From: an uncultured Flavobacteriales bacterium
GTDB taxonomy: Bacteria; Bacteroidota; Bacteroidia; Flavobacteriales_D; Crocinitomicaceae
Assembly: GCA_903939755.1 (NCBI GenBank)
Contig: CAJAII010000008.1
Coordinates: 124,001-188,000, forward strand
Length of the DNA: 64,000 nucleotides
Direction of reading: 5' to 3'
Both the position numbers and the translations under genes were made by a program. Below are positions 2,226 through 23,776 of the stretch, piece after piece (the first letter of the stretch is position 1; each line of letters opens with the position of its first letter). The notes below the pieces were generated by a model. That model worked only from the letters and a program-made list of their open reading frames with translations, ran no database searches and had not been told where the DNA came from.

Positions 2226-3191
2226 TTGAAGTCAGAAAGTAGAGAAATTGTTATTGAGCAAATAAATCCCGCCGATTTATTTGGAGTTAACAATGATTAT
2301 TTAAAGCATATAAAAAGCTTATTCCCTAAATTATCTATTTTATCTAGAGGCAATATCCTCACCATAAAAGGGGATGATGATACGATGGATGAATTTGAAC
2401 GAAAATTCGAATTGATTATGGCGCATTATCACAAATATAATTCCCTTTCCAAAAACAACATCGATAACTTAATGCTTGAAAATGGAGCGATTTTACTCTC
2501 CAGTGATCAAGAGGATGATATTATCGTTCATGGAAATGGGGGGAATAAAATTAGAGCGAGGACGGTTAACCAGAAAAAGTTGGTTGAAGCCATCAATAAA
2601 CACGATATGGTTTTTGCTGTTGGTCCAGCTGGTACAGGTAAGACATACACGGCTGTTGCCTTGGCAGTGCGCGCCCTTAAAGCCAAGGAAGTAAAACGCA
2701 TCGTTTTGACAAGACCGGCAGTTGAAGCAGGTGAAAATTTGGGATTTCTTCCGGGGGATTTGAAGGAAAAACTAGATCCCTATTTAATGCCTTTATACGA
2801 TGCATTACGCGATATGATTCCCGCTGAAAAATTAGCGAACATGCTTGAAACAGGCATCATTGAAATAGCACCTTTAGCGTTCATGCGTGGAAGAACCCTC
2901 GACAAAGCTTTTGTGATTCTCGATGAAGCTCAGAATACAACCAGTCTGCAAATGAAAATGTTCTTAACTCGGATGGGAATGACTGCCAAATTTGTGATTA
3001 CAGGAGATATGTCTCAAGTAGACTTGCCCCATCGGCAAAAATCAGGGCTTAATTATGCTTTGGACATTTTGGAAGACATTGAAGAAATAAGTATTATTAG
3101 GTTGGGAAAAAGTGACATAATACGACATAAATTAGTTAGTAAAATAATTGAAGCTTACGAAAAATCGGAGGCAAATTCCACTTTAGAATAA
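2226..3191 (+). CDS. phoH: PhoH family ATPase
   Basis: A 321-residue cytoplasmic P-loop NTPase related to superfamily 1 helicases, probably involved in RNA metabolism. An N-terminal domain of about 110 residues precedes the PhoH core. Walker A is GPAGTGKT at about residues 133-140 and the Walker B-like ILDEAQNT at about 231-238, followed by the FVITGDMSQVDLP motif III-type segment. The start is a TTG. An ATG 11 bases upstream is out of frame and stops after four codons, so no better start exists without losing the conserved N-terminus. purC follows after 12 bases, suggesting an operon. It is divergent from the SAM hydrolase gene. Confidence 0.92.
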   Translation: MKSESREIVIEQINPADLFGVNNDYLKHIKSLFPKLSILSRGNILTIKGDDDTMDEFERKFELIMAHYHKYNSLSKNNIDNLMLENGAILLSSDQEDDIIVHGNGGNKIRARTVNQKKLVEAINKHDMVFAVGPAGTGKTYTAVALAVRALKAKEVKRIVLTRPAVEAGENLGFLPGDLKEKLDPYLMPLYDALRDMIPAEKLANMLETGIIEIAPLAFMRGRTLDKAFVILDEAQNTTSLQMKMFLTRMGMTAKFVITGDMSQVDLPHRQKSGLNYALDILEDIEEISIIRLGKSDIIRHKLVSKIIEAYEKSEANSTLE

Positions 3192-3203
3192 ATAAAAAAA
3201 AGA

Positions 3204-4151
3204 ATGACAAATTCCACTACTACTTATCATTTTGACGGACAAATTGGTGTATATCATGGTAAAGTTCGAGATGTTTATACATTAACAGAAAAGCGCTTGG
3301 TGATGGTAGCTTCTGATCGAATTTCTGCATTTGATCATATCTTGCCTAAAGGTATTCCTTTTAAAGGGCAAGTTCTTAATCAGGTAGCTACGTATTTTTT
3401 AGATGCAACGAAGGATATTGTTCCCAATTGGTTGATCGCTACGCCCGACCCATCTGTTTCAATCGGACATTCCTGCGAACCCATTCGAGTTGAAATGGTT
3501 ATCAGAGGATATTTGGCCGGCCATGCTGCTAGGGAATATAAAGCAGGTAAAAGAGAATTGTGTGGGGTGAATTTACCAGAAGGATTGATTGAAAATGATC
3601 GTTTACCTTCTCCAATCATTACCCCAGCCGTAAAAGCGGAGGAAGGGCACGATGAAGACATTTCTCGTGAAGATATTTTGCTGCATGGCCATGTTAGTCA
3701 AGAAGTATATGAAAAAATGGAATTGTATACACGGAAACTTTTTCAGAGAGGAACTGAAATGGCGTTTAAACAAGGACTAATATTGGTCGATACAAAATAT
3801 GAGTTTGGCTTGCTTGACGGAGAGGTAATTTTAATTGATGAAATTCACACGCCAGATTCATCGCGTTATTTTTATGCGGAGGGCTACGAAGAGCGCCAGG
3901 CTTTGGGGCAAGAACAAAAGCAATTGTCAAAAGAATTTGTCCGACAATGGTTGATTGAAAATGGCTTCCAAGGATTGGACGGTCAAGAAATCCCGACTAT
4001 GCCAGATGAATTTGTTAAGGTTATTTCTGAGCGCTACATTGAGTTGTATGAAAAAATAACCGGCCATGACTTTGTTAAATCGGACACGGAAAATATTCAA
4101 GAGCGCATTTTCAATAATGTACAAAGGTATCTTCAGCAAGAAATCGGATAG
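3204..4151 (+). CDS. purC: Phosphoribosylaminoimidazole-succinocarboxamide synthase (SAICAR synthetase)
   Basis: It catalyses the ATP-dependent joining of aspartate to CAIR in purine synthesis. The 315-residue length is that of the longer bacterial/yeast-like form rather than the roughly 240-residue E. coli form. Recognisable segments are GKVRDVYTL near the N-terminus, [20 protein letters not shown], the signature [11 protein letters not shown] near residue 100, and DTKYEFGL near residue 200. No domain is missing. It lies 12 bases after phoH and its stop codon directly abuts the stop of the convergent phosphatase gene, with no intergenic base. Confidence 0.95.
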
Positions 4152-11972: not shown

Positions 11973-13502
11973 ATGGAAGTGTTATGGATATTAATGGGAT
12001 TAATTGGCGGTGGATCAGCAACTTTTTTTATTCAAAAGAGTTTGGTGAAAACCAAAAGCGAAGGCTTAATTAAAGAAGCAGAATTACAAGCTGAAATTAT
12101 TCGAAAGGAAAAAGCGTTGCAGGCCAAGGAGAATTTCTTGCGTTTGAAAGAAGAACATGAATCGGCGATTAAAGATCGTGAAAGAAAGCTTCAATCTAAT
12201 GAAGATCGCGCTCGTGCTAAAGAGAAAAACATAGATCAAAAAATTGAAGAGCTTGGACGTAAAGAGAAAATCACGGAAGGTTTACAAAATGATTTTGATG
12301 CTAAATTTCAGGGATTGGCAGTGCGCATGCAAGAGTTAGATAAAATTCAGAGTAAGCGAGTTGCTGAGCTGTCAAAAATTAGTGGAATGCAACCGGAGGA
12401 TGCTAAAAAAATGTTAATGGAGGCATTAACGGATGAGGCAAGAACGGGAGCCATGGCCCAAATAAAAGAAATCACGGAAGAAGCGAAGCTTAATGCGAAT
12501 CGTGAAGCGAGAAAAATTGTTATCCAAACTATTCAACGAGTTGCTACAGAACAAGCGGTAGAGAACGCGGTATCGGTATTTAATATCGAATCGGATGAAG
12601 TAAAGGGTCGTATTATTGGACGTGAAGGTCGAAATATTCGTGCCTTGGAAGCAGCCACGGGAGTTGAAATTATTGTAGATGATACGCCAGAAGCAATTAT
12701 CCTTTCTTGTTTTGATCCAGTACGTAGAGAAATTGCAAGACTTGCACTCCATCAGTTGGTTTCTGATGGCCGAATTCATCCTGCCAGAATTGAAGAGGTG
12801 GTGGCTAAAACCCGCAAGCAATTGGATGAGGAAATCGCAGAAACGGGGAGAAGAACTTGCATAGATTTAGGTATTCATGGCTTGCATCCTGAACTAATGC
12901 GCATGGTGGGAAGAATGAAATTCAGATCTTCTTATGGACAGAATTTGCTGCAACACTCTCGTGAAGTAGCCAATCTGTGTGCGATTATGGCAGCAGAACT
13001 TGGACTCAATGTTAAATTGGCGAAACGGGCTGGACTATTGCATGATATTGGAAAAGTTCCCGATGAAGAGCCTGAATTACCACATGCTATTCTTGGGATG
13101 AAGGTCGCTGAGAAATTCGGTGAGAAAGGTGAGGTGCTTAATGCCATTGGTGCGCATCACGATGAAATCGAAATGACTTCCTTAATTTCTCCTATTGTGC
13201 AAGTTTGTGATGCTATTTCAGGCGCTAGACCTGGTGCTAGACGTGAAATAGTTGAAACGTACATTAAACGAATTAAAGAACTGGAAAATTTAGCACTTTC
13301 GTATGATGGCGTTAGTAGCGCATATGCAATTCAAGCAGGAAGAGAGTTGCGTGTTTTGGTTGAAGCAGAAAAAGTAACTGATCAGCGATCAGAAGAATTG
13401 TCATTTACTATTTCGCAACGAATTCAAACAGAAATGACGTATCCAGGTCAAGTTAAAGTCACAGTAATCCGCGAAAAAAGATCAATAAATTACGCAAAGT
13501 AA
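11973..13502 (+). CDS. rny: Ribonuclease Y
   Basis: A 509-residue membrane-anchored endoribonuclease that starts mRNA decay. Residues 1-20 form a transmembrane anchor. About 25-150 is a long charged coiled coil. The KH domain is at about 200-265 with [15 protein letters not shown]. The HD domain follows, with [11 protein letters not shown] (metal His), the paired HD of LLHDIGK, and IGAHHDE. The length is usual for the family. It follows zapA by 51 bases and likely shares the upstream promoter. Confidence 0.96.
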
Positions 13503-13553
13503 TACTTTGAAACCTTTCGTGGTCAACTTTGTTGTTAAATAAAGTTTATTTTC

Positions 13554-14597
13554 ATGAATACAAATTTGCAACTAATTGCAGGTCCTTGTAGCGCGGAAAC
13601 ACGCGAGCAGGTATTGGAAACGGCGAAAGACTTAGTTCATATTCAACCAAGCTATTTTAGAGCAGGTATTTGGAAACCTAGAACTCGACCCGGTGAATTT
13701 GAGGGTTCGGGTAATCCAGCATTAGCTTGGATGAAAGAGGCAAAAGCTACGTATGGATTGAAAATATGTACCGAGGTGGCGAATGCGAATCATGTTGAGC
13801 TAGCTTTGAACGCTGGTTTTGATATGTTGTGGATTGGCGCTCGCACCACCACTAATCCTTTCTCTGTTCAAGAGATTGCCGATGCGCTAAGAGGTGTTGA
13901 CATGCCCATCATGGTGAAAAATCCGATTAATCCCGATTTGAAATTATGGGTCGGTGCTATTGAACGACTTTATAACGTTGGTGTCAATGATGTTTCCGCC
14001 ATTCACCGTGGATTCTCTGTATATGAAATTGCGAAATACCGCAATAACCCTAATTGGCAAATTCCAATTGATCTCAAACAGGAATTGCCTCTACTACCGC
14101 TTCTTTGTGATCCTTCTCATATCACAGGTGATGCTTCCATGTTGTTGGAAGTTGCTCAGAAAGCTATTGATTTGAAATACGATGGCTTAATGCTTGAAAC
14201 GCATTGCAATCCCCGGGAAGCATGGACGGATGCTAAACAACAAGTTACTCCGGCGGAACTAGCGGAGCTTTTGGCTAAATTGCATTTTAGGGATCGAAGG
14301 GAAATTGAGGAGGCGGAATTAATGGAGTTTAGAGCGAAAATTAATGCAATGGATGAAGCCATAATTCATTTGCTGACCGAACGGATGTTTACTTCAGGTT
14401 TGATTGGTAAATTTAAAAAAGAACATAATTTAGCGATCTTGCAGAAAGCCCGTTGGGAAGAGCTGCTTATGAGTAATGTAGATAAAGCAGTAAAACTTAA
14501 GCTCTCTAATGAATTTTCAACGCAATTGTTTAAGCTTATTCATCAAGAATCAATTCATATTCAGTCACAAATTTTGAATGACAAAAATAATGAGTAG
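13554..14597 (+). CDS. Bifunctional DAHP synthase / chorismate mutase
   Basis: A 347-residue fusion enzyme for aromatic amino-acid synthesis. The N-terminal part (about 1-250) is a small DAHP synthase barrel: LQLIAGPCSAE at the start, GIWKPRTRPGEFEG, WIGARTTTNPFSVQ, VKNPINPDLKLWVGAIER, CDPSHITGD and LMLETHCNP. These cover the phosphate and metal binding segments of the KDO8P/DAHP superfamily. The C-terminal part (about 255-347) is an AroQ-type chorismate mutase helix bundle starting ELMEFRAKINAMDEAIIHLL. In Bacteroidota the fused mutase also serves as an allosteric module. It is followed directly by aroA with a 20-base overlap. Confidence 0.94.
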   Translation: MNTNLQLIAGPCSAETREQVLETAKDLVHIQPSYFRAGIWKPRTRPGEFEGSGNPALAWMKEAKATYGLKICTEVANANHVELALNAGFDMLWIGARTTTNPFSVQEIADALRGVDMPIMVKNPINPDLKLWVGAIERLYNVGVNDVSAIHRGFSVYEIAKYRNNPNWQIPIDLKQELPLLPLLCDPSHITGDASMLLEVAQKAIDLKYDGLMLETHCNPREAWTDAKQQVTPAELAELLAKLHFRDRREIEEAELMEFRAKINAMDEAIIHLLTERMFTSGLIGKFKKEHNLAILQKARWEELLMSNVDKAVKLKLSNEFSTQLFKLIHQESIHIQSQILNDKNNE

Positions 14598-15834
14598 ATC
14601 TATTCTTCCATTTAAATATCAAGGAAGTATGATGGCTAATCCATCCAAAAGTCACCTGCAAAGGGCAATTATCTGCGCCGCCCTTGCCAAAGAAAAGACA
14701 CATTTTTCAATACACAATCCTTCCGATGATGTAGCTGCTGCACTTCGTCTTTTGCCTGCTTTGGGTGCATCATTTCAAAATGGGATTGTCACCCCAACTT
14801 CTTCGACGAATAGACAGGATGAATTGATATTGAATGTGGGTGAGTCCGGCTTGTTGCTTCGCTTAATGTCCACGATTGGTTTGGGGTTTGCCAAACGATT
14901 GATTATTCAGGGAGAGGGTACTTTGCTGAATCGATCGATTGTTTCACTTACAGATCAATTGCGAGCAATAGGCTTGCATGTTCAATCCAATAATGGTTTT
15001 CTTCCTATAGTAATTGAGGGAGAAATTACGAATTCTTCCTTGTCGGTGAATGCATCGGACAGTTCTCAATTCCTTTCTGGTTTGCTGATTTCACTATCAC
15101 AAAGACCATTTGATAGTGTGGTGCATGTGTCGGCATTAAGCAGTAAGCCTTACATTGATTTAACCATTGATGTTGTGAAAGATTTTGGGGTACGTATTCG
15201 CCATGATAATTACGATACATTTTATATAGAAGGTAATCAATCCTTGTCAGCTCAAAAAATTAATATGGAAGGTGATTGGAGCGGGGCATCGAATCATTTG
15301 GTGGGTGCCGCCATTTCGGGTGAAATTACAATGAAAGGGTTGTCGATTGTTTCTACTCAAGCGGACAAATGTATGTTGGAAGTGCTCGCTGATTTTGGTG
15401 CGATTGTGGAAGTTAATGAACGTGAAATAAAGGTGAAGCAAAATGAAAAAAGACCATTTGTATTTGACGCCTCAAATTGCCCTGATTTATTTCCTCCTCT
15501 TGCTATTTTGGCATGCGCTGCGGTGGGAACGACTGAAATTAAAGGACTTCATCGTTTGGTGAATAAAGAATCAAATCGTCAACTTAGTATTGTCAAGATG
15601 CTGAACGTTCTTGGGGTGAATTTTAAAATTGTTTCGGACAGCATCTTTATTGAAGGCAATGGAGTAGTGCAGGGCGGAACGATCGCTACCTATAATGATC
15701 ATCGCATTTCGATGGCTGGCGCAATTGCAGCTAGTATCGCTGCATCTGAAATTACCATCGATAACGTGGAGTGCGTGGCTAAATCATACCCCAACTTTTT
15801 TAACGATTTGGAAGCTATAAAATTAGCGAATTAG
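14578..15834 (+). CDS. aroA: 3-phosphoshikimate 1-carboxyvinyltransferase (EPSP synthase)
   Basis: A 418-residue enzyme that transfers enolpyruvate from PEP to shikimate-3-phosphate. Visible elements are ANPSKSHLQRAIICAAL near the N-terminus (substrate-binding Lys-Ser and Arg), GESGLLLRLM replacing the usual GNAGT region, DSSQFLSGLL, CPDLFPPLAILA, LVNKESNR and YNDHRISMAGAIAA. GESGL-type variation is seen in Bacteroidota EPSP synthases. Two ATGs, four codons apart, could start translation; both overlap the end of the upstream fusion gene (20 or 8 bases). The pair makes a two-gene shikimate operon. Confidence 0.93.
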   Translation: MTKIMSRSILPFKYQGSMMANPSKSHLQRAIICAALAKEKTHFSIHNPSDDVAAALRLLPALGASFQNGIVTPTSSTNRQDELILNVGESGLLLRLMSTIGLGFAKRLIIQGEGTLLNRSIVSLTDQLRAIGLHVQSNNGFLPIVIEGEITNSSLSVNASDSSQFLSGLLISLSQRPFDSVVHVSALSSKPYIDLTIDVVKDFGVRIRHDNYDTFYIEGNQSLSAQKINMEGDWSGASNHLVGAAISGEITMKGLSIVSTQADKCMLEVLADFGAIVEVNEREIKVKQNEKRPFVFDASNCPDLFPPLAILACAAVGTTEIKGLHRLVNKESNRQLSIVKMLNVLGVNFKIVSDSIFIEGNGVVQGGTIATYNDHRISMAGAIAASIAASEITIDNVECVAKSYPNFFNDLEAIKLAN

Positions 15835-15986
15835 GTCATAATTTCCTGCATTATATTGATCTAAATTTTTTGTAAAAAAATATTCGGCCTTTATAATAAT
15901 TATTATTTTCGCGACTAAACGAGGAAATGTTTACCAAGAATTTTGGAACTAACTTTTTAATTAAATTTTTAAACTAAAAAAAAAAA

Positions 15987-16104
15987 ATGATAAAAAAACT
16001 TCTTTTAATCGCTGGATTTTCAATTAGTCTAGTTGCTGTTAATGCTCAAATCCTGCAAGGTAATTTTATGATTAATCCAATTTGGCCTTTCAGCTAAATT
16101 CTAA
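15987..16104 (+). pseudogene. Deletion remnant of an outer-membrane beta-barrel gene
   Basis: From the ATG the frame encodes a good signal peptide (MIKKLLLIAGFSISLVAVNA) and then QILQGNFMINP, which resembles the mature N-terminus of the intact barrel protein 3 kb downstream (SQLLKGDILVDP). It then stops after 36 codons. In the next frame the following bases encode FGLSAKF and a stop, almost identical to that protein's C-terminus FGVSAKF. The middle of the gene, by comparison about 190 codons, is therefore gone and the two ends are joined out of frame. AATCCA at the junction occurs in the intact gene's C-terminal end too, which suggests a short-repeat deletion. A terminator like the intact gene's follows. 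Confidence 0.75.
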
Positions 16105-16120
16105 ATGAAGCACTCAATAA

Positions 16121-16154
16121 AAAAAGCCATCCATTATTTGACGGATGGCTTTTT
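16121..16154. terminator. Bidirectional terminator after the barrel remnant
   Basis: The stem AAAAAGCCATCC / GGATGGCTTTTT has a 10-base loop, with A-runs before and T-runs after. It can stop transcription from both sides, between the plus-strand remnant and the minus-strand T9SS gene. Its arms share AAAAAGCCATCC and the following ATGCGC with the terminator at 19811-19842. Confidence 0.8.
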
Positions 16155-16229
16155 TTATGCGCAAAAGTAAAGTGTTAGATTTCTAACGACCTTTTCAGAT
16201 AGAGGAAATCGTTTTAGTTCATGTAGGAA

Positions 16230-17549
16230 CTACAGCTTTACTATTCTTTTTGTTAGCTTTTGGTCAGCTTGTTCGCTTTGTAGAAAATAACATCCTGCTG
16301 GAAAGTTAGAAAGGTCGATGATCGTTTCTGAAGTGGTAGGGATAATCTCCATTAGGTGTTTTCCAAAGCAATCTACAAGTATAATTCGTTTGGTTTCCTT
16401 AGTATGTCGAATGGTTAATTCATCGCGTGTTGGGTTGGGAAAGACTTCCATTTCGATGTTGTTATTTTCTCCCAAACCAATATTATTGTCAGTTCTGTAT
16501 AATACGTTATCAATATAGACAACGCCAGAACCTGCAGGAGCGGCAGAAATAATAAGCTGCGCGATGTGTTGTGTGCTATTCAAGGAGATGAAATTACTCA
16601 ATGGAATGTCGTAAGTGTTCCACTGTTCTAATGTAGGGACAAAGGACAATTCGTGCTCGCTGTCATCGCCACCTGAATAGGCCATATCAGCCCCAAAATC
16701 AACCAGTTTAATTTTTAAATTAGTGATATTGGTAGTCCAAGCATCTATTCTGAGGTGGGTCATTGTGCTTACATTTAGAATATTCGCTCCTAATGTTTCG
16801 ATTCCCACGTAATCCAAGTTGGTATATTTCTTAGTGTCGTTTCCTGTAATTTGTAGATTGCTAAGTGTTCCTTGCGACCATACGGCTTGCCAAGTGTCAA
16901 CGCTTACGTTCGTGTAAGGATTGCTGAACATGGAAATAACGTTTGTAGCATTATAAGTTGGTGTTGGTGCCGCTACCATAGGTTCGTTTAATGGAGGGCC
17001 CTGATTGCTAAATTTGATATTGTCGAAATAACAGATGTTGTCTTGGTTGCGTTGTTGAAAATCTGGAAAAATAATGATTTGATCGATACCTGTAGAAGAA
17101 GGTGCTCCAACGATGGCACTGAAATCAAATGTCAATTCTTCCCACTGATTGATGAGTGTATTGCTAACCAATAGTTCTCCCGTAGAAGCACCTGCAGGAG
17201 TCGCAAACTTTATCCCAACAGGGCTAATAATTGGTTTGTAGACCATAATTTTTACAATGCAATTACTCGCTGTTAAAGTAAACGTACCTATGCCTGCACC
17301 ATGCTGTGACTCACAGCCTGCCCAAGGCATTCCATTTTGTTTAGCAGTAAATTTCGCCACCTGCGCTGAAAGATTTATTCCTGCAGCTGATGGATTGTCA
17401 ACTATTTCTAATGGCGGTTGATTGTCATTTTCAAATACGGTCCAGGTCCAAAGTGTTCCAAAACCACCTGATTCAAATGATATCGGTCCATTCTGCGCCA
17501 AACAGGTGTTCGCTGCGATGATGATAAATAAGAGTAGCGTTTTTTTCAT
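16230..17549 (-). CDS. T9SS-exported protein with galactose-binding-like (CBM-type) modules
   Basis: A 439-residue exported protein. Residues 1-19 form a signal peptide (ends ANTCLAQ). Two beta-sandwich modules can be discerned: about 20-180 (ending NICYFDNIKFSN) and about 190-355 (ending SGVVYIDNVLYR). The ...YIDNV...Y ending is common in carbohydrate-binding modules attached to marine glycosidases. The last 75 residues are a type A T9SS sorting domain, with EVFPNPTRDELTI and LSNFPAGCYFLQ. No glycosidase domain is present, so it is probably a surface glycan-binding protein. It stands alone, with terminators or repeats on both sides. Confidence 0.8.
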   Translation of the reverse strand: MKKTLLLFIIIAANTCLAQNGPISFESGGFGTLWTWTVFENDNQPPLEIVDNPSAAGINLSAQVAKFTAKQNGMPWAGCESQHGAGIGTFTLTASNCIVKIMVYKPIISPVGIKFATPAGASTGELLVSNTLINQWEELTFDFSAIVGAPSSTGIDQIIIFPDFQQRNQDNICYFDNIKFSNQGPPLNEPMVAAPTPTYNATNVISMFSNPYTNVSVDTWQAVWSQGTLSNLQITGNDTKKYTNLDYVGIETLGANILNVSTMTHLRIDAWTTNITNLKIKLVDFGADMAYSGGDDSEHELSFVPTLEQWNTYDIPLSNFISLNSTQHIAQLIISAAPAGSGVVYIDNVLYRTDNNIGLGENNNIEMEVFPNPTRDELTIRHTKETKRIILVDCFGKHLMEIIPTTSETIIDLSNFPAGCYFLQSEQADQKLTKRIVKL

Positions 17550-17647
17550 GGTCGATTGTTTTCTTTTTGTTAAAAGTACAATAATGTTTTGTGAAAGCTT
17601 AAATTATTTTTTTTGACAGTTTTTAATTATACTTTAAGAATATAATT

Positions 17648-17730
17648 TATAACCCCGCAAGGGCTTAGCTTTTTTACGCTGGATGTAATCCAGCGAAAAA
17701 ATAGGAAATGAATCCCTTTTCGGCATGTAT
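17648..17730 (+). repeat. Dispersed intergenic repeat with three hairpins, copy 1
   Basis: About 83 bases that match the reverse complement of 31301-31386. A block of 34 bases is identical (17676-17709), and the flanks differ by only a few changes. The core is a perfect 8-bp inverted repeat, CGCTGGAT-GTA-ATCCAGCG (17677-17695). A first hairpin (AACCCC...) has partly decayed here, and a third, ATCCCTTTTCGGCAT, is also imperfect. It lies 43 bases past the stop of the unknown lipoprotein gene. No coding potential is evident. Confidence 0.85.
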
Positions 17731-17773
17731 CCGCCAGTTATTTTCTATACAGAAGTCAATTAAAGTTACTTCA

Positions 17774-19072
17774 TCATAACTTTTCTAATTCACATTTATT
17801 TATACGCACATAATGGTTGGACCCATTGGGATAATCTTGTGAATTCCCATTAAGTAAAAGAATGTCAATGTAGTTTGAATTTATGGAACTGCCATTAGAC
17901 GCATTACTCAAGTACATATAGTTTCCTGAAACAAAAGAGGGTAATTTGATTTCTCTGAGACTTCCATCGATTCCTTTCTTTATAAATAAACCATTGTACT
18001 TGATACACAGGTAATAGATGGTTCCTTGGTGTTCAATCAGTCTAATTCGATTGATATCATCCATATCTAATGGAATAGGAGTTTCGGTAGATTGTCCGCT
18101 TGCATCTATTTCTAGTTGATAGAAGCTTGATTTCCATTCCGCTGAGGGATCTAGTAGTTTTTGATAAATACCTATTGCCTTGTTAGAGGAACTCAGAAAT
18201 AATTCGCAATTGTCTACTAATCTGTTGCGAGTTGCTGCCAAGGGGTGAGTACTTAAATCACACATAGTTTGGTTGGTCCATGTGCCATTAAATCGATGAA
18301 ATAATTTATTTTTATAATAAATGGCGGGTAATCCGGGACCAACATAATCATCTTGTACAGCCAAAACACAAGGTCCATTTGGTGTTCCTAATACGAAAGG
18401 GTAGTAGTAGGAATTACCCAAATTTTGGCCTGCCATTTCTTCGGTCCAATTGGGTGCATCGACCTGCTTGTAATAGAGTTTAAGGTCTTGGTACAATCCA
18501 AACGAAACATACAGTATATCGTCCGCGCTGATGGATGCTCCAATACGTATGTTGACAGTTTCAGAGGTTCCAGGTGTATGATCAACGATTAATTCTATTG
18601 TATGATTAAATATATCACCACTTTTAGCATTTGGAAAAGTGTAGTGTTTCAGTTTTCCAAGCGACCCATTTTCTGATGGATCAGTTTCTGTAGGTTCAAA
18701 AACGATTAAGTGAATACCGCCTTTTGAATCGACCAAGATATTTGCGGGTCGGGAAGTAGGAATTCCTGCTCCTTTCACCCAAGGTCCATTTCCTGTTTTA
18801 CAATAGAGGTAAACGGTAGAGGGGTTGCTTGCGTTAGGTAAACCGTTAGATAAATTATCATTATCGACAACCGTCATGAAGACTTTATTCTCAAATCGAA
18901 CAATTTTTTGCTGGTTATATCCCCACCAGGTCCCGTTTTCTTGGTGGTACATACTCCCAGGAATACATTCAATGTGTACTTTCATGTTACTCGAACCGTT
19001 TTTTTTACAGCCAAAAAGAACAATCGTTAAGATCAGAAAGAGGGTAGAATAATATTTGCTCAAATTGGTCAT
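17774..19072 (-). CDS. Predicted lipoprotein of unknown function, probable beta-propeller
   Basis: A 432-residue protein with a lipoprotein signal: a hydrophobic stretch followed by the lipobox LFGC (Cys22) and then KKNGSS. The mature part shows repeated strand patterns such as RPANILVDSKGGIHLIVF, ISADDILYVSFG and RLIEHQGTIYYLCIKYNG, each with the form 'value-turn-hydrophobic strand' found in BNR/sialidase-like propellers. I do not recognise a family, and no catalytic residues can be named. It should be anchored to the outer membrane. It is divergent from the barrel gene at 19126, separated by only 53 bases, so the two promoters must overlap. Confidence 0.7.
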   Translation of the reverse strand: MTNLSKYYSTLFLILTIVLFGCKKNGSSNMKVHIECIPGSMYHQENGTWWGYNQQKIVRFENKVFMTVVDNDNLSNGLPNASNPSTVYLYCKTGNGPWVKGAGIPTSRPANILVDSKGGIHLIVFEPTETDPSENGSLGKLKHYTFPNAKSGDIFNHTIELIVDHTPGTSETVNIRIGASISADDILYVSFGLYQDLKLYYKQVDAPNWTEEMAGQNLGNSYYYPFVLGTPNGPCVLAVQDDYVGPGLPAIYYKNKLFHRFNGTWTNQTMCDLSTHPLAATRNRLVDNCELFLSSSNKAIGIYQKLLDPSAEWKSSFYQLEIDASGQSTETPIPLDMDDINRIRLIEHQGTIYYLCIKYNGLFIKKGIDGSLREIKLPSFVSGNYMYLSNASNGSSINSNYIDILLLNGNSQDYPNGSNHYVRINKCELEKL

Positions 19073-19125
19073 AAAAAAGACTTAGATTTATACCAAATTA
19101 ACTATTAATCCTACAATTTAAGATC

Positions 19126-19794
19126 ATGAATCTAAAAAAAATAATATTCATTTGTTTTCTTGTGAACTCCCTTAGTTTTAATTCACAATTGCTTAAAGGA
19201 GATATACTAGTTGATCCTTACGTTGGTATACCAAATTATCCTAACTTGGGAGTATCTAAAATGTTTTCAATTAATACACAGGGATCTGATAGCTATAAAC
19301 TTGTTGGTGGGTTTTTTTCGTATGGTTTTCGTTTAGAGTACATGCTTACTGACAAATTAGGCTTGGGTACAGACTTTAATTATGTAAAGTCGGGTTATAC
19401 TTCGGATTATATCGGTTATCAATACGATGAATTTAATAATCAATTATTTGACACCAATGGTATTGCGCTGCTAATGCCTTATAGTGAGAAGTATACGGCC
19501 GAAAGATACCGTGCAATGGGCAGGTTGAATTATTATTTCTCAAGTAATGAGAAAGTAAATTTTTATGGAGGTCTGGGAATTGGTTATTATGGTGTTAATC
19601 GATCTTTCACTACTACGCCATATGATCCCTCAAGTGCAAGTTTTATTAACTTCGTTGATGAGGTTTTATTCCCTATCAGTTTTCGTTTGGCAATAGGCGC
19701 TAAATTTTACTTTACCCGTAATTTTGGAGGACACGTTGAACTGGGAAGTTTTGGCGGAGGTACAATCCAATTTGGCGTTTCGGCTAAATTCTAA
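19126..19794 (+). CDS. Outer-membrane beta-barrel protein
   Basis: A 222-residue exported protein with a signal peptide (MNLKKIIFICFLVNSLSFNS). The mature chain has alternating amphipathic strands: GFFSYGFRLEYMLTDKLGLG, MGRLNYYFSSNEKVNFYGGL, ISFRLAIGAKFYFTRNFGGH and a last strand ending IQFGVSAKF. The terminal Phe is typical of BamA-recognised barrels, and the fold resembles OmpW/OmpA-type porin-like barrels (DUF family unknown). It is the intact relative of the remnant at 15987. A bidirectional terminator with a perfect stem follows. Confidence 0.82.
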   Translation: MNLKKIIFICFLVNSLSFNSQLLKGDILVDPYVGIPNYPNLGVSKMFSINTQGSDSYKLVGGFFSYGFRLEYMLTDKLGLGTDFNYVKSGYTSDYIGYQYDEFNNQLFDTNGIALLMPYSEKYTAERYRAMGRLNYYFSSNEKVNFYGGLGIGYYGVNRSFTTTPYDPSSASFINFVDEVLFPISFRLAIGAKFYFTRNFGGHVELGSFGGGTIQFGVSAKF

Positions 19795-19810
19795 GAAATG
19801 CATTAAATGA

Positions 19811-19842
19811 AAAAGCCATCCATCAAGAGATGGATGGCTTTT
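19811..19842. terminator. Bidirectional terminator between barrel gene and aconitase gene
   Basis: A perfect 14-bp stem (AAAAGCCATCCATC / GATGGATGGCTTTT) with a four-base loop AAGA and an extended T-run. It lies between two convergent genes and resembles the terminator at 16121-16154. Confidence 0.9.
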
Positions 19843-19867
19843 TTTTTATGCGCTATAGCTTAGGATT

Positions 19868-22132
19868 TTAGTTTTCCATTAACTTAATCAAATTCAAGGC
19901 CGACCCTGCCTTAAACCAATCTATTTGAGAGCTATTGTAGGTGTGATTCAATAAAATTGTATCCGTTTTACCAGTTGAATGAACAATTTCTAAGGTCAAT
20001 GCTTTGCCGGGTTGGAATGATGTTAAATCAATAAAGTTGAAAGTGTCATCTTCTTGTATTTTATCATAATCTGCTTCATTTTGAAAAGTAAGGCCTAACA
20101 TTCCTTGTTTTTTGAGATTAGTTTCATGGATACGTGCGAATGATTTCACGATTACTGCAGTTACACCTAGATGTCTTGGCTCCATGGCCGCATGCTCACG
20201 GGAGGAACCCTCTCCGTAGTTATGGTCTCCCACAACAATTGTTGGAATACCAGCCGCTTTATAGGCTCGTTGCACCGCAGGAACTTCTCCGTAATTTAAT
20301 GTAAGTGAATTTTTGACACAATTTGCTTTGCCATTAAAGGCATTTTCGGCACCGATCAATAAATTGTTGGAGATGTTATCCAAATGTCCACGGTATTTAA
20401 GCCAAGGCCCCGCCATAGAAATATGGTCGGTTGTACATTTGCCTATTGCTTTGATAAGCAACTTGGCTCCTGTAATGTTTTCGCCGTCCCACATTGGAAA
20501 ATTGTCTAATAATTGCAACCTAGAAGAATCTTCAGCAACAATAATTTGAACACTTGCTCCATCTTCAGCAGGTGCTTGATAACCATTGTCTTCTACCGAA
20601 AAGCCTAATAAAGGTAGTTCGTCACCTTGTGGTGGCGAGAATTTAAACGCTTCCCCTTCTTTATTTATTAACGAGTCAGTTAATGGATTAAATCCAAGGT
20701 CACCAGATATTGCAATCGCAGCAACTATTTCTGGCGAGGCTACAAAAGCGTGTGTATTTGGATTGCCATCAGCACGTTTAGAAAAATTACGATTAAACGA
20801 ATGTATAATGGTATTTTTTTCTTGTTTTTCTGATCCTTCGCGTGACCATTGTCCTATACACGGACCGCATGCATTGGTGAATATTTTGGTTCCCATTTTA
20901 TTAAAATCTTCCAATATCCCATCGCGTTCTGCTGTAAAGCGTACTTGTTCAGAACCAGGATTGATTCCAAATTCAGCCTTTGGCATAATCCCATTGGCAA
21001 CAGCTTGTTTTACAATCGATGCTGCTCTAGCTAAATCTTCATACGATGAATTCGTACATGAACCAATTAATCCCCATTCCACTTTTGTTGGCCATGCATT
21101 TGCCGCTGCGTCGCCCTTCATTTTTGAAATTGGCGTCCCACGATCTGGCGTGAAAGGGCCATTGATATGAGGCTCTAATTCACTAAGATTTATTTCTATT
21201 AATTGATCAAAATAGGCTGTTGGATTCTCGTATACTTCAGGATCTCCAGTCAAATGTTCTGCTATCTGATCTGCTGCACTCACTACTTCTGCTCTTCCCG
21301 TCGCATTCAAATACCGTCGCATTGATTCATCGTATCCAAAGGTTGAAGTGGTGGCGCCGATTTCAGCTCCCATATTACAAATAGTCCCTTTTCCTGTACA
21401 GGATAAGGAAAGTGCTCCTTCTCCAAAATATTCGACTACTGCACCTGTTCCTCCTTTCACGGTTAAAATATCTGCGACCTTAAGAATTACATCTTTCGCA
21501 GAGGTCCAACCGTTTAGTTTTCCTGTTAATTTTACTCCGATTAATTTAGGGAACTTTAATTCCCATGCCATTGCTGCCATTACATCTACTGCATCCGCTC
21601 CACCAACTCCAATGGCAATCATTCCTAAACCTCCAGCGTTGACGGTATGAGAATCTGTTCCAATCATCATTCCACCAGGAAAGGCATAGTTCTCTAACAC
21701 AACTTGATGGATAATTCCTGCTCCTGGCTTCCAAAATCCAATACCATATTTATTGGAAATAGAGGATAGAAAATTAAAAACTTCGTTGTTTTGATTGAGC
21801 GATTCTTGCAAGTCTTTGGTTGCACCAAGTTTTGCTTGGATAAGATGATCCGCATGAACGGTGGAAGGAACGGCTACCTTCTTTTTACCTGCTTGCATAA
21901 ATTGAAGCAAGGCCATTTGCGCAGTGGCATCTTGCATTGCTACACGATCAGGTGCAAAATCTACATAGGAGTTTCCACGGGTATATGCTTCTGTTGCGTT
22001 ACCTTCCCAAAGGTGTGTATAAAGAATTTTTTCTGTCAATGTTAGTGGTCGCCCAACTAATTTTCTTGCTGCTTCTATTCTTGTTGGATACAAGGAATAG
22101 ATTCTTTTAATCATGTCAATATCAAAAACCAT
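19868..22132 (-). CDS. acnA: Aconitate hydratase
   Basis: A 754-residue TCA-cycle enzyme that interconverts citrate and isocitrate using a [4Fe-4S] cluster. The cluster cysteines are visible in [14 protein letters not shown] and [11 protein letters not shown]. Other signatures are [40 protein letters not shown] and, in the swivelling domain, [22 protein letters not shown]. The length and N-terminus fit the mitochondrial-type aconitases that are usual in Bacteroidota. The gene is monocistronic. The symbol follows common usage; the protein is not the longer E. coli AcnA form. Confidence 0.96.
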
Positions 22133-22298
22133 ACGTTAATTTCTTAAAAATAATGAGTAAAATTAAGAATTTTGCTCGAGGAGTCACTGCTAAAAACCGA
22201 TATTTTTTCCTTAAATGAATCATAATTGTTTTTTGATTCGTTCTTAGGCCTAAAATTAAATTAGTATTTTTAAGAGCCAACAAGTACCTTTGGTATTA

Positions 22299-23354
22299 GT
22301 GTTAAGAAAACTTAAAATTATTGATCTTTCTACAGTATTGGCAGGGCCATCTGTAGCTACTTTCTTTGCTGAATTAGGAAGTGAAGTCATTAAAATTGAA
22401 AACAAAAACAATCCAGACGTAACTCGATCGTGGTTTTCAAAAGGAGAGGAAGCTGGACAATTATCGGCGTATTTTGCAAGTATTAATTATAAAAAAGAAT
22501 ACAGAAAGTTAGATTTTTTGGATTCGAACGATCACGCTTTGTTTTTAAAAGAAGTAGTGAATGCAGATATACTTATCAGTAATTTTAAAAAGGGGGATGA
22601 AGAAAAACTCAATCTAACAGATGATTTTCTGCGATCTGTGAATCCCCAATTAATTATTGGAAAAATAAGTGGGTTTAGCCACGAAAGTGATCGGGTAGCC
22701 TATGACTTGATTCTACAAGCTGAAACAGGTTTCATGTCAATTAATGGCACAAAGGAAAGTGGACCCTTGAAATTACCAGTTGCACTGATTGATGTCTTAG
22801 CTGCACATCAATTAAAAGAAGGATTGCTCCTCGCACTTTTAGATTTAAAAGAAAATGGAACGGCAAGAACGGTGGAGGTATCGCTTTATGATACGGCGAT
22901 TTGTAGCTTAATGAATCAAGCATCTAATTATTTGATGACAGGAATACTCCCTGAACGAATGGGGAGTTTGCATCCTAATATTGCGCCTTATGGTGAATTG
23001 TTTCAAACGTTGGATCAAAAAACGATCACTTTTGCCATTGGTAGTAACCTCCATTTTTTAAAATTATGCCTTTATTTTAATTTGAAGTCCTTGCCAACGG
23101 ATGTGCGATATGCGGATAATAAAAGCCGCGTGATTAACCGCTCATCGCTATACGACTATTTATCAGATCAAGTTTGTCTTAAAACGGCAGAGGAAATTTC
23201 TACTGCCATGCGTCAAGAAAAGGTTCCTTATGGCATTGTAAAAAATTTAGCCGAGGTTTTGAATAGTGATGTGGCCAATGACATGGTAAAATCAGAAATA
23301 ATTGACACAACTTTTAGCAAAAGAATGCCTCAAATTGCGTTCAAATGGAAATAG
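22299..23354 (+). CDS. CaiB/BaiF-family (class III) CoA-transferase
   Basis: A 351-residue enzyme of the formyl-CoA transferase/alpha-methylacyl-CoA racemase fold. The N-terminus LKIIDLSTVLAGPSVATFFAELGSEVIKIE is diagnostic, split here by VLAGP; the catalytic Asp sits in LPVALIDVLAAH. EVSLYDTAICSLMNQ and PNIAPYGELFQT are also family features. The chain is slightly short for the family (about 400). An upstream TTG is in frame but lies inside a perfect -7 box, TACCTTTG (22285-22292), so the GTG nine bases later is a better start and may be leaderless. The substrate cannot be predicted. It overlaps the following GNAT gene by ten bases. Confidence 0.88.
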   Translation: MLRKLKIIDLSTVLAGPSVATFFAELGSEVIKIENKNNPDVTRSWFSKGEEAGQLSAYFASINYKKEYRKLDFLDSNDHALFLKEVVNADILISNFKKGDEEKLNLTDDFLRSVNPQLIIGKISGFSHESDRVAYDLILQAETGFMSINGTKESGPLKLPVALIDVLAAHQLKEGLLLALLDLKENGTARTVEVSLYDTAICSLMNQASNYLMTGILPERMGSLHPNIAPYGELFQTLDQKTITFAIGSNLHFLKLCLYFNLKSLPTDVRYADNKSRVINRSSLYDYLSDQVCLKTAEEISTAMRQEKVPYGIVKNLAEVLNSDVANDMVKSEIIDTTFSKRMPQIAFKWK

Positions 23355-23776
23355 AAATTAGGTCACCACTTACCCAAACGGAATGGGAAGCCTATTACGA
23401 TTTAAGGTTTCGGGTACTTCGCGCACCGTGGAATCAACAAAAAGGGAGTGAACGAGACGCACAGGAGGCCGAAGCGGAGCATTTTGCGGTTTTTAAAGAG
23501 CAACAAATTATTGCGGTTGGTAGGTTGGATCAACTAAACGAATCTACTTGTCAAGTTAGGTTTATGGCGGTAGACCCTTTATTTCAAGGAAAAAATATAG
23601 GCAAATCCTTGATGGAATTTATTTTGATTCATTCTCAGAAGAAGCAAGAAAAAAATGTCATCTTGCACGCAAGAGAAATGGCAGTGCCATTTTATGAACG
23701 AATGGGTTTTCAGGTTACCGAGAAATCGCACTTGTTGTTTGGAGAAATCCAACATTATTTAATGCAAAAAAAATAA
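23345..23776 (+). CDS. GNAT-family N-acetyltransferase
   Basis: A 143-residue single-domain acetyltransferase. The acetyl-CoA-binding motif A is VRFMAVDPLFQGKNIGKSLM (about 78-97), where Q-G-K-N-I-G matches the Q/R-x-x-G-x-G/A loop. ILHAREMAVPFYERMGFQVT is the usual C-terminal motif B region. The N-terminal LTQTEWEAYYDLRFRVLRAP resembles the ElaA/YjgM-like subgroup. The substrate is unknown. It is translationally coupled to the CoA-transferase gene and ends in a hairpin terminator that overlaps its stop codon. Confidence 0.88.
   Translation: MEIEIRSPLTQTEWEAYYDLRFRVLRAPWNQQKGSERDAQEAEAEHFAVFKEQQIIAVGRLDQLNESTCQVRFMAVDPLFQGKNIGKSLMEFILIHSQKKQEKNVILHAREMAVPFYERMGFQVTEKSHLLFGEIQHYLMQKK

Follow-up and report, generated by a model that had tools for sequence, protein, structure and literature searches.

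A probable lineage-specific deletion in an outer-membrane barrel gene behind aroA in an uncultured Flavobacteriales bacterium

The stretch of DNA analysed here (64,000 nucleotides, hereafter the window) carries a 36-codon open reading frame behind aroA, and it raises the question of whether this frame is a small gene in its own right or what is left of a larger one, and, in the latter case, how the remainder was lost. The frame translates as MIKKLLLIAGFSISLVAVNAQILQGNFMINPIWPFS. Its first 33 residues are 76% identical (E 1.5e-8) to the start of an intact protein from a close relative, G044, which was searched against 86 genomes of the genus. The bases that encode FGLSAKF in relatives are also present, out of frame, at 16081–16101, followed by the old stop codon at 16102–16104. 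The original prediction held that the two ends of an outer-membrane barrel gene remain here, joined out of frame, and both arms of this gene, which we call copy A, are confirmed at 15987–16104 by intact relatives. The features of the surrounding interval are collected in Table 1. A search of positions 13000–23500 against Rfam returned no matches at gathering scores, the window contains no tRNA or tmRNA genes, and the gene at 17774–19072 has no Pfam or NCBIfam match up to an E value of 1.

Table 1. Features of the interval between the DAHP synthase and aconitase genes, with a related fragment in three other genomes (last row)
Feature	Position	Strand	Remarks
DAHP synthase/chorismate mutase gene	13554–14597		
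aroA (EPSP synthase)	14578–15834	+	Pfam PF00275, 272 bits; conserved left neighbour that fixes the synteny
Collapsed copy A, 5' arm	15987–16073	+	Start codon, signal peptide and first mature codons; base-by-base alignment with intact copy A of G044, G049, G108 and G123
36-codon ORF left by the deletion	15987–16097	+	Probably non-functional
Deletion junction, TTAATCCA	16072–16079	+	Only TT is certain to be shared; the 3' arm is the simplest source of AATCCA
Collapsed copy A, 3' arm	16072–16104	+	Originally read as LIQFGLSAKF-stop; no longer in frame
Hairpin terminator behind the remnant	16124–16151	+	-19.2 kcal/mol; loop wider than that behind copy B, still a strong fold
T9SS gene, with a sorting tail for type IX secretion; between copies A and B	16230–17549	-	Pfam PF18962, 41.4 bits; TIGR04183
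Gene between copies A and B	17774–19072	-	Lipoprotein-like by eye; present in five close relatives
Copy B, intact paralogue, outer-membrane beta barrel	19126–19794	+	222 aa; 46% identical to copy A of G044; predicted barrel fold
Terminator behind copy B	19813–19840	+	-24.1 kcal/mol; stem sequence the same as behind the remnant
Aconitase gene	19868–22132	-	
Third truncated A-like barrel 3' end with terminator, adjoining aconitase	L072 about 3180–3302 (minus), L074 9330–9445, L090 1462–1576		In G044, G108 and G006

Five close relatives are readable at the locus (G044, G108, G048, G123 and G049, with aroA identities of 88, 83, 81, 80 and 78%). Copy A stands at full length directly behind aroA in four of them, namely G044, G049 and G108 (219 codons) and G123 (220 codons). 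Aligned to these four intact copies, the remnant shows no gaps up to ...ATGA(TT) and none from TTAATCCAATTTGG... onward, leaving one breakpoint. The 3' arm has the same base as the relatives, all four agreeing, at 32 of its 33 positions, and within the first 85 bases the 5' arm differs at 5 of the 76 sites where the four agree. The loss comes to 542 bases when measured against G044, G049 and G108 and to 545 against G123, or about 181 codons in place of the roughly 190 first estimated. Because both sizes are 2 modulo 3, the frame is shifted, and the reading frame of the remnant is destroyed, with a stop after 36 codons. A deletion thus accounts for the missing middle and the frameshift together against each of the four intact relatives, as had been proposed.

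In the fifth close relative, G048, copy A is gone together with its terminator, and aroA runs almost straight into the T9SS gene. This loss is apparently an event separate from the deletion in the window. At the same place in G048 (L076 3335–3349) the last codons of aroA differ. A few hundred extra bases lie between aroA and copy A in G108 (L074 2929–3360); these are absent from the window, G049 and G123 and are partly shared with G044. We did not count G006 among the five: its aconitase is 96% identical, but copy A cannot be judged there because neither aroA nor the barrel (at E 0.001) finds a match.

Among more distant members, all eleven loci that were fetched (L079–L089) have a barrel gene in the interval from aroA to aconitase; these loci were picked from the best matches of the G044-protein search and are not a random sample. 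In G042 and in G021, the latter partial there, a T9SS gene stands between aroA and the barrel. With the G044 protein as query, a match of any kind is found in 68 of the 86 genomes of the genus, the weaker ones counted without being placed at a locus. The simplest reading is that copy A is old at the aroA locus and that the version in the window is a derived loss. No intact copy A occurs elsewhere in the genome to which the window belongs: a search with copy B finds copy B alone, and a search with copy A of G044 finds two matches, copy B and the remnant. In G123, copy B is absent from the search results and a gene of the 17774 type adjoins aconitase (L075 1789–1836), so that the loss of copy A and that of copy B seem to fall in different species. 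The related loci found in named genome records, 23 in all, are each titled as metagenome-assembled genomes, and 17 are labelled Flavobacteriales, Crocinitomicaceae or Fluviicola. Two records, L092 and L104, are titled Chryseobacterium gleum; their barrel locus groups with the Flavobacteriales and Crocinitomicaceae records, and they are probably mislabelled.

The junction itself is rare. Its exact 18-mer is present in one of the 86 genus genomes, that of the window. Allowing one mismatch adds two matches, one at the 3' site of the intact gene in G049 and one in G014 on a contig other than that carrying its aroA. Of the 86 genomes, 36 are below 90% completeness or above 5% contamination, so that absence is an imperfect guide. 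A separate DNA search covered eight scored candidates per genome. The viral contigs searched contained no relatives of the barrel and no exact match to the junction. On the strength of these alignments and searches, we consider it highly probable that 15987–16104 is a deletion pseudogene of a barrel gene, specific to its lineage and produced by ordinary gene decay.

An assembler could also have made the join, the gene itself being unbroken in the living population. The assembly is a draft (78 contigs with a total of 2.9 Mb, rated 99.79% complete), and false joins can occur in records of this kind. G108, a close relative, has two internal frameshifting gaps, neither marked by Ns, in the same stretch (at L074 930 and 10168): about 122 bases are missing from DAHP synthase and about 54 codons from aconitase, and since both are housekeeping genes these gaps are likely to be assembly errors. 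Such joins call for caution with any deletion seen in a single genome in data of this type. However, the two sites in copy A share only 2–4 exact bases, too short an overlap to mislead an assembler, and no intact copy turns up elsewhere in a nearly complete genome. When seven genes of the window were compared with the five relatives, 31 of the 33 gene-genome pairs were unsplit. Both split pairs belong to G108, and the neighbouring genes of the window therefore look whole. The intact copies A of G044, G049 and G123 are independent of the G108 record. We judge an artefact to be decidedly unlikely.

The paralogue downstream, copy B, indicates what kind of protein was lost and also provides another possible source for the 3' end of the remnant. 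Copy B and copy A of G044 fall below the Pfam gathering cut-offs for the families PF13505 (OMP_b-brl) and PF13568 (OMP_b-brl_2); copy B scores 22.0 against a cut-off of 28.7, and copy A of G044 scores 25.7 against 27.0 and 25.5 against 28.7. The predicted structure of copy B (mean pLDDT 79.8, pTM 0.67) consists of a signal helix and about eight strands that close into a barrel, nine strand elements being listed, of which 57–61 and 65–73 were read as one. Its best match in the PDB is OmpA (Foldseek E 2.9e-6, TM-score 0.47 by query and 0.58 by target), and OprF, Ail, OmpW and OmpX also match at E values under 0.001. By its modelled fold, copy B is thus predicted to be a small outer-membrane beta barrel. 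The family tree contains supported A and B clades. However, the place of copy B among the other members is unsure (a branch of 1.26, with a warning of long-branch effects), and for this reason we do not use the tree to date the duplication that gave A and B. The tree leaves out the partial or weaker matches to the G044 query (G021, G058, G034, G008 and those below, and the second match in G012), while G037 is kept as a partial row.

If recombination with copy B had replaced the 3' end of copy A, an internal deletion would not be needed. One base of the 3' arm, the third of a GGC codon, agrees with copy B of the window and not with copy A of the four relatives. Over the arm and its downstream flank, however, 131 of 158 bases fit copy A of G044 and 129 of 158 fit copy A of G049, whereas copy B of the window agrees at 119 of 158, and the order of copy A followed by the T9SS gene is kept. 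The flank comparison largely refutes an exchange of this kind, which we regard as very improbable.

Returning to an internal deletion in copy A, we examined the sequences at its ends. The hexamer AATCCA lies at 16074–16079 in the remnant and had been noticed both there and in copy B; indeed, AATCCAATTTGGC is found at the junction and at 19764 in copy B. Allowing up to one mismatch, this sequence has two matches in the window against 0.33 expected, and two or more are seen in 3 of 100 shuffles. From the hexamer, the original prediction deduced a deletion between two copies of AATCCA, one at each end of the intact gene. At the 3' site all four intact relatives read TTAATCCA, which contains AATCCA. 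At the 5' site, three read TTGACCCA and one reads TTGATCCA, giving GACCCA in three and GATCCA in G108, and AATCCA in none of the four. The proposed repeat is thus found at one end only. The codon at the 5' site, codon 30, specifies aspartate in all 28 members of the tree set that could be read there by eye, G037 as the 29th being a partial row, and likewise in all 22 readable rows of a second alignment. Because the relatives have aspartate at this codon, the asparagine of the remnant was most simply imported with the 3' arm, and the AATCCA of the junction would most simply come from that arm alone.

A deletion between exact AATCCA copies, a variant of the preferred explanation, would require that the ancestor of the window also had AATCCA at the 5' site. 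The reading of the junction and of the 3' site agrees with it, and the 5' site of G108 is one base away. However, the hexamer is missing at the 5' site of every intact relative, a conserved aspartate would have had to change to asparagine while the gene still worked, and the 3' arm already explains all six bases. We consider this version of the mechanism unlikely.

The exact stretch shared at the breakpoint is 2–3 bases in the actual relatives, of which TT is certain; it would reach four (GATT) if the base before TT at the 3' site was A, as it is in G049. No exact direct repeat of at least 5 bp is present at both breakpoint sites in the intact relatives. Stronger direct repeats were also considered as a cause, and longer ones do exist elsewhere in the intact gene but not at the breakpoints. 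The 8-mers at the two breakpoints, TTGAYCCA at the 5' site and its 3' counterpart, form an imperfect repeat in which 6 or 7 of 8 bases match. We compared these matches with those at random pairs of breakpoints, 20,000 for each gene and separated by 300 bases or more, scoring each pair by the best among the nine 8-base windows that touch the break. By chance, an equally good 8-mer match arises at frequencies of 0.029, 0.032, 0.0035 and 0.033 for G044, G049, G108 and G123, and an exact match of equal length at 0.18, 0.07, 0.19 and 0.19 for the same genomes. The 8-mer frequencies are weak evidence, hinting at slippage at the imperfect repeat and no more. Because the breakpoint match is 2–4 bases and the longer repeats were left unused, the event is not proven to be repeat-driven.

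Whether the stub could still be of use was approached through its substitutions. Of the sites that can be compared, the left arm has changes specific to the window at 5 of 76 and the right arm at 1 of 33, or 6 of 109 in total. This proportion exceeds those over whole genes (43/929 for aroA, 37/1091 for the T9SS gene, 25/1094 for the 17774 gene and 14/581 for copy B) and is below those at fourfold sites (7/57, 6/69, 12/84 and 4/54 for the same genes), the figures for copy B being drawn from comparison with three relatives only. In the left arm three changes replace a residue and two are silent, compared with eight and three among the intact relatives over the same short stretch; codon 30 of the window was excluded from this tally as it spans the junction. 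Since intact genes, too, show loose evolution of the signal peptide, the comparison is uninformative about selection on the stub.

The 36-codon frame could be imagined as a working small secreted peptide, with a mature part of about 16 residues by eye, for whose sake the deletion was kept. The signal-peptide region is open and well preserved, the terminator behind the remnant still folds, and the upstream region can still be aligned with that of relatives. However, the stub consists for the most part of the former signal peptide and ends in five residues read in a previously unused frame, it has no family match, and its exact junction is present in a single genome of the 86 searched. A conserved small protein is not supported by the readable relatives or by the junction search. 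Relatives sharing the same 36-codon gene, which the original prediction had named as the observation that would count against a pseudogene, were not seen: four of the five close relatives have the full gene and the fifth has none. We find a functional peptide scarcely credible, and the stub is probably non-functional.

The terminators behind the remnant and copy B had suggested that gene and terminator were duplicated together. With no mismatch allowed, the genome contains the stem pattern exactly twice, once after the remnant and once after copy B, and since it is limited to these two places the sharing does not reflect a genome-wide motif. The terminator behind the remnant may also serve the convergent T9SS gene. 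The proposed joint duplication stands as far as the terminator is specific to the two loci, but G044 and G108 depart from it. In these genomes, copy B ends in QFGLSVKI and lacks both the shared 3' end and the terminator, which sit instead behind a third barrel fragment. There, copy B is followed by a further gene with a T9SS tail, then by a short 3' piece of an A-like barrel gene that carries the terminator, and then by aconitase. The intervening gene encodes 495 aa in both genomes and contains SprB repeats in addition to the sorting tail, as checked for G108. The same third fragment is found in G006 behind part of the same SprB-repeat gene. In the window, G048 and G049, the 3' end of copy B and its terminator resemble those of the third fragment. 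The history linking copy B and this fragment is more tangled than one duplication, and readings by insertion and by deletion both fit.

The barrel copies have been lost differently by species: copy A is broken in the window and gone in G048, copy B was not found in G123, and the third copy is truncated in G044, G108 and G006. One might conjecture that the interval between aroA and aconitase is a site of repeated integration and loss, where genes with T9SS tails were inserted beside barrels and left whole or broken copies sharing a terminator, different ones of which have since been lost in each species. The copies and their terminators could then act as recombination handles for the exchange of surface-protein genes. 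We regard this wider picture as doubtful. Most likely, the barrel family consists of ordinary duplicated surface proteins, and the remnant is a real lineage-specific loss.

The events in the window can be pictured as follows. The ancestral gene behind aroA would have encoded an outer-membrane beta barrel of about 219 residues. After the split from the sampled relatives that keep copy A, the lineage of the window would have lost about 542 bases in what was probably one event, beginning at codon 29 and stopping just short of the final ten codons. The signal peptide, a few further residues and a 3' end in the wrong frame were left. The most likely origin of the join is slippage independent of RecA, or end joining, where the two sites match over a very short or imperfect stretch (TTGAYCCA on the 5' side and TTAATCCA on the 3' side), of which the product would keep the 3' version. 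Copy B remains 3 kb downstream and may have made the loss of copy A tolerable.

The locus offers a clear example, placed by its relatives, of the loss of one duplicate of a surface protein. It also carries a caution, in that a short repeat read from the deletion product alone can stem wholly from one side of the break, and intact relatives are required before a repeat is named as the cause of a deletion.

Copy B resembles small barrels of the OmpA/OmpX type in its predicted fold, with OmpA as the best match. However, its sequence identity to the PDB matches is about 10–15%, and its Pfam scores are those of a protein below the family cut-offs. The deletion in copy A has a counterpart in short-homology-dependent illegitimate recombination in bacterial genomes as described in PMC2884548. 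In the three bacterial species considered there, repeats of 5 bp or more border 10–18% of the variable segments, and the authors propose replication slippage. Here too a deletion has occurred with little match between its ends, at a locus that differs between close relatives. However, flanking repeats were counted in that study from 5 bp upward, whereas copy A of the relatives offers an exact match of 2–3 bases, or 4 at the most, and a longer one that is imperfect.
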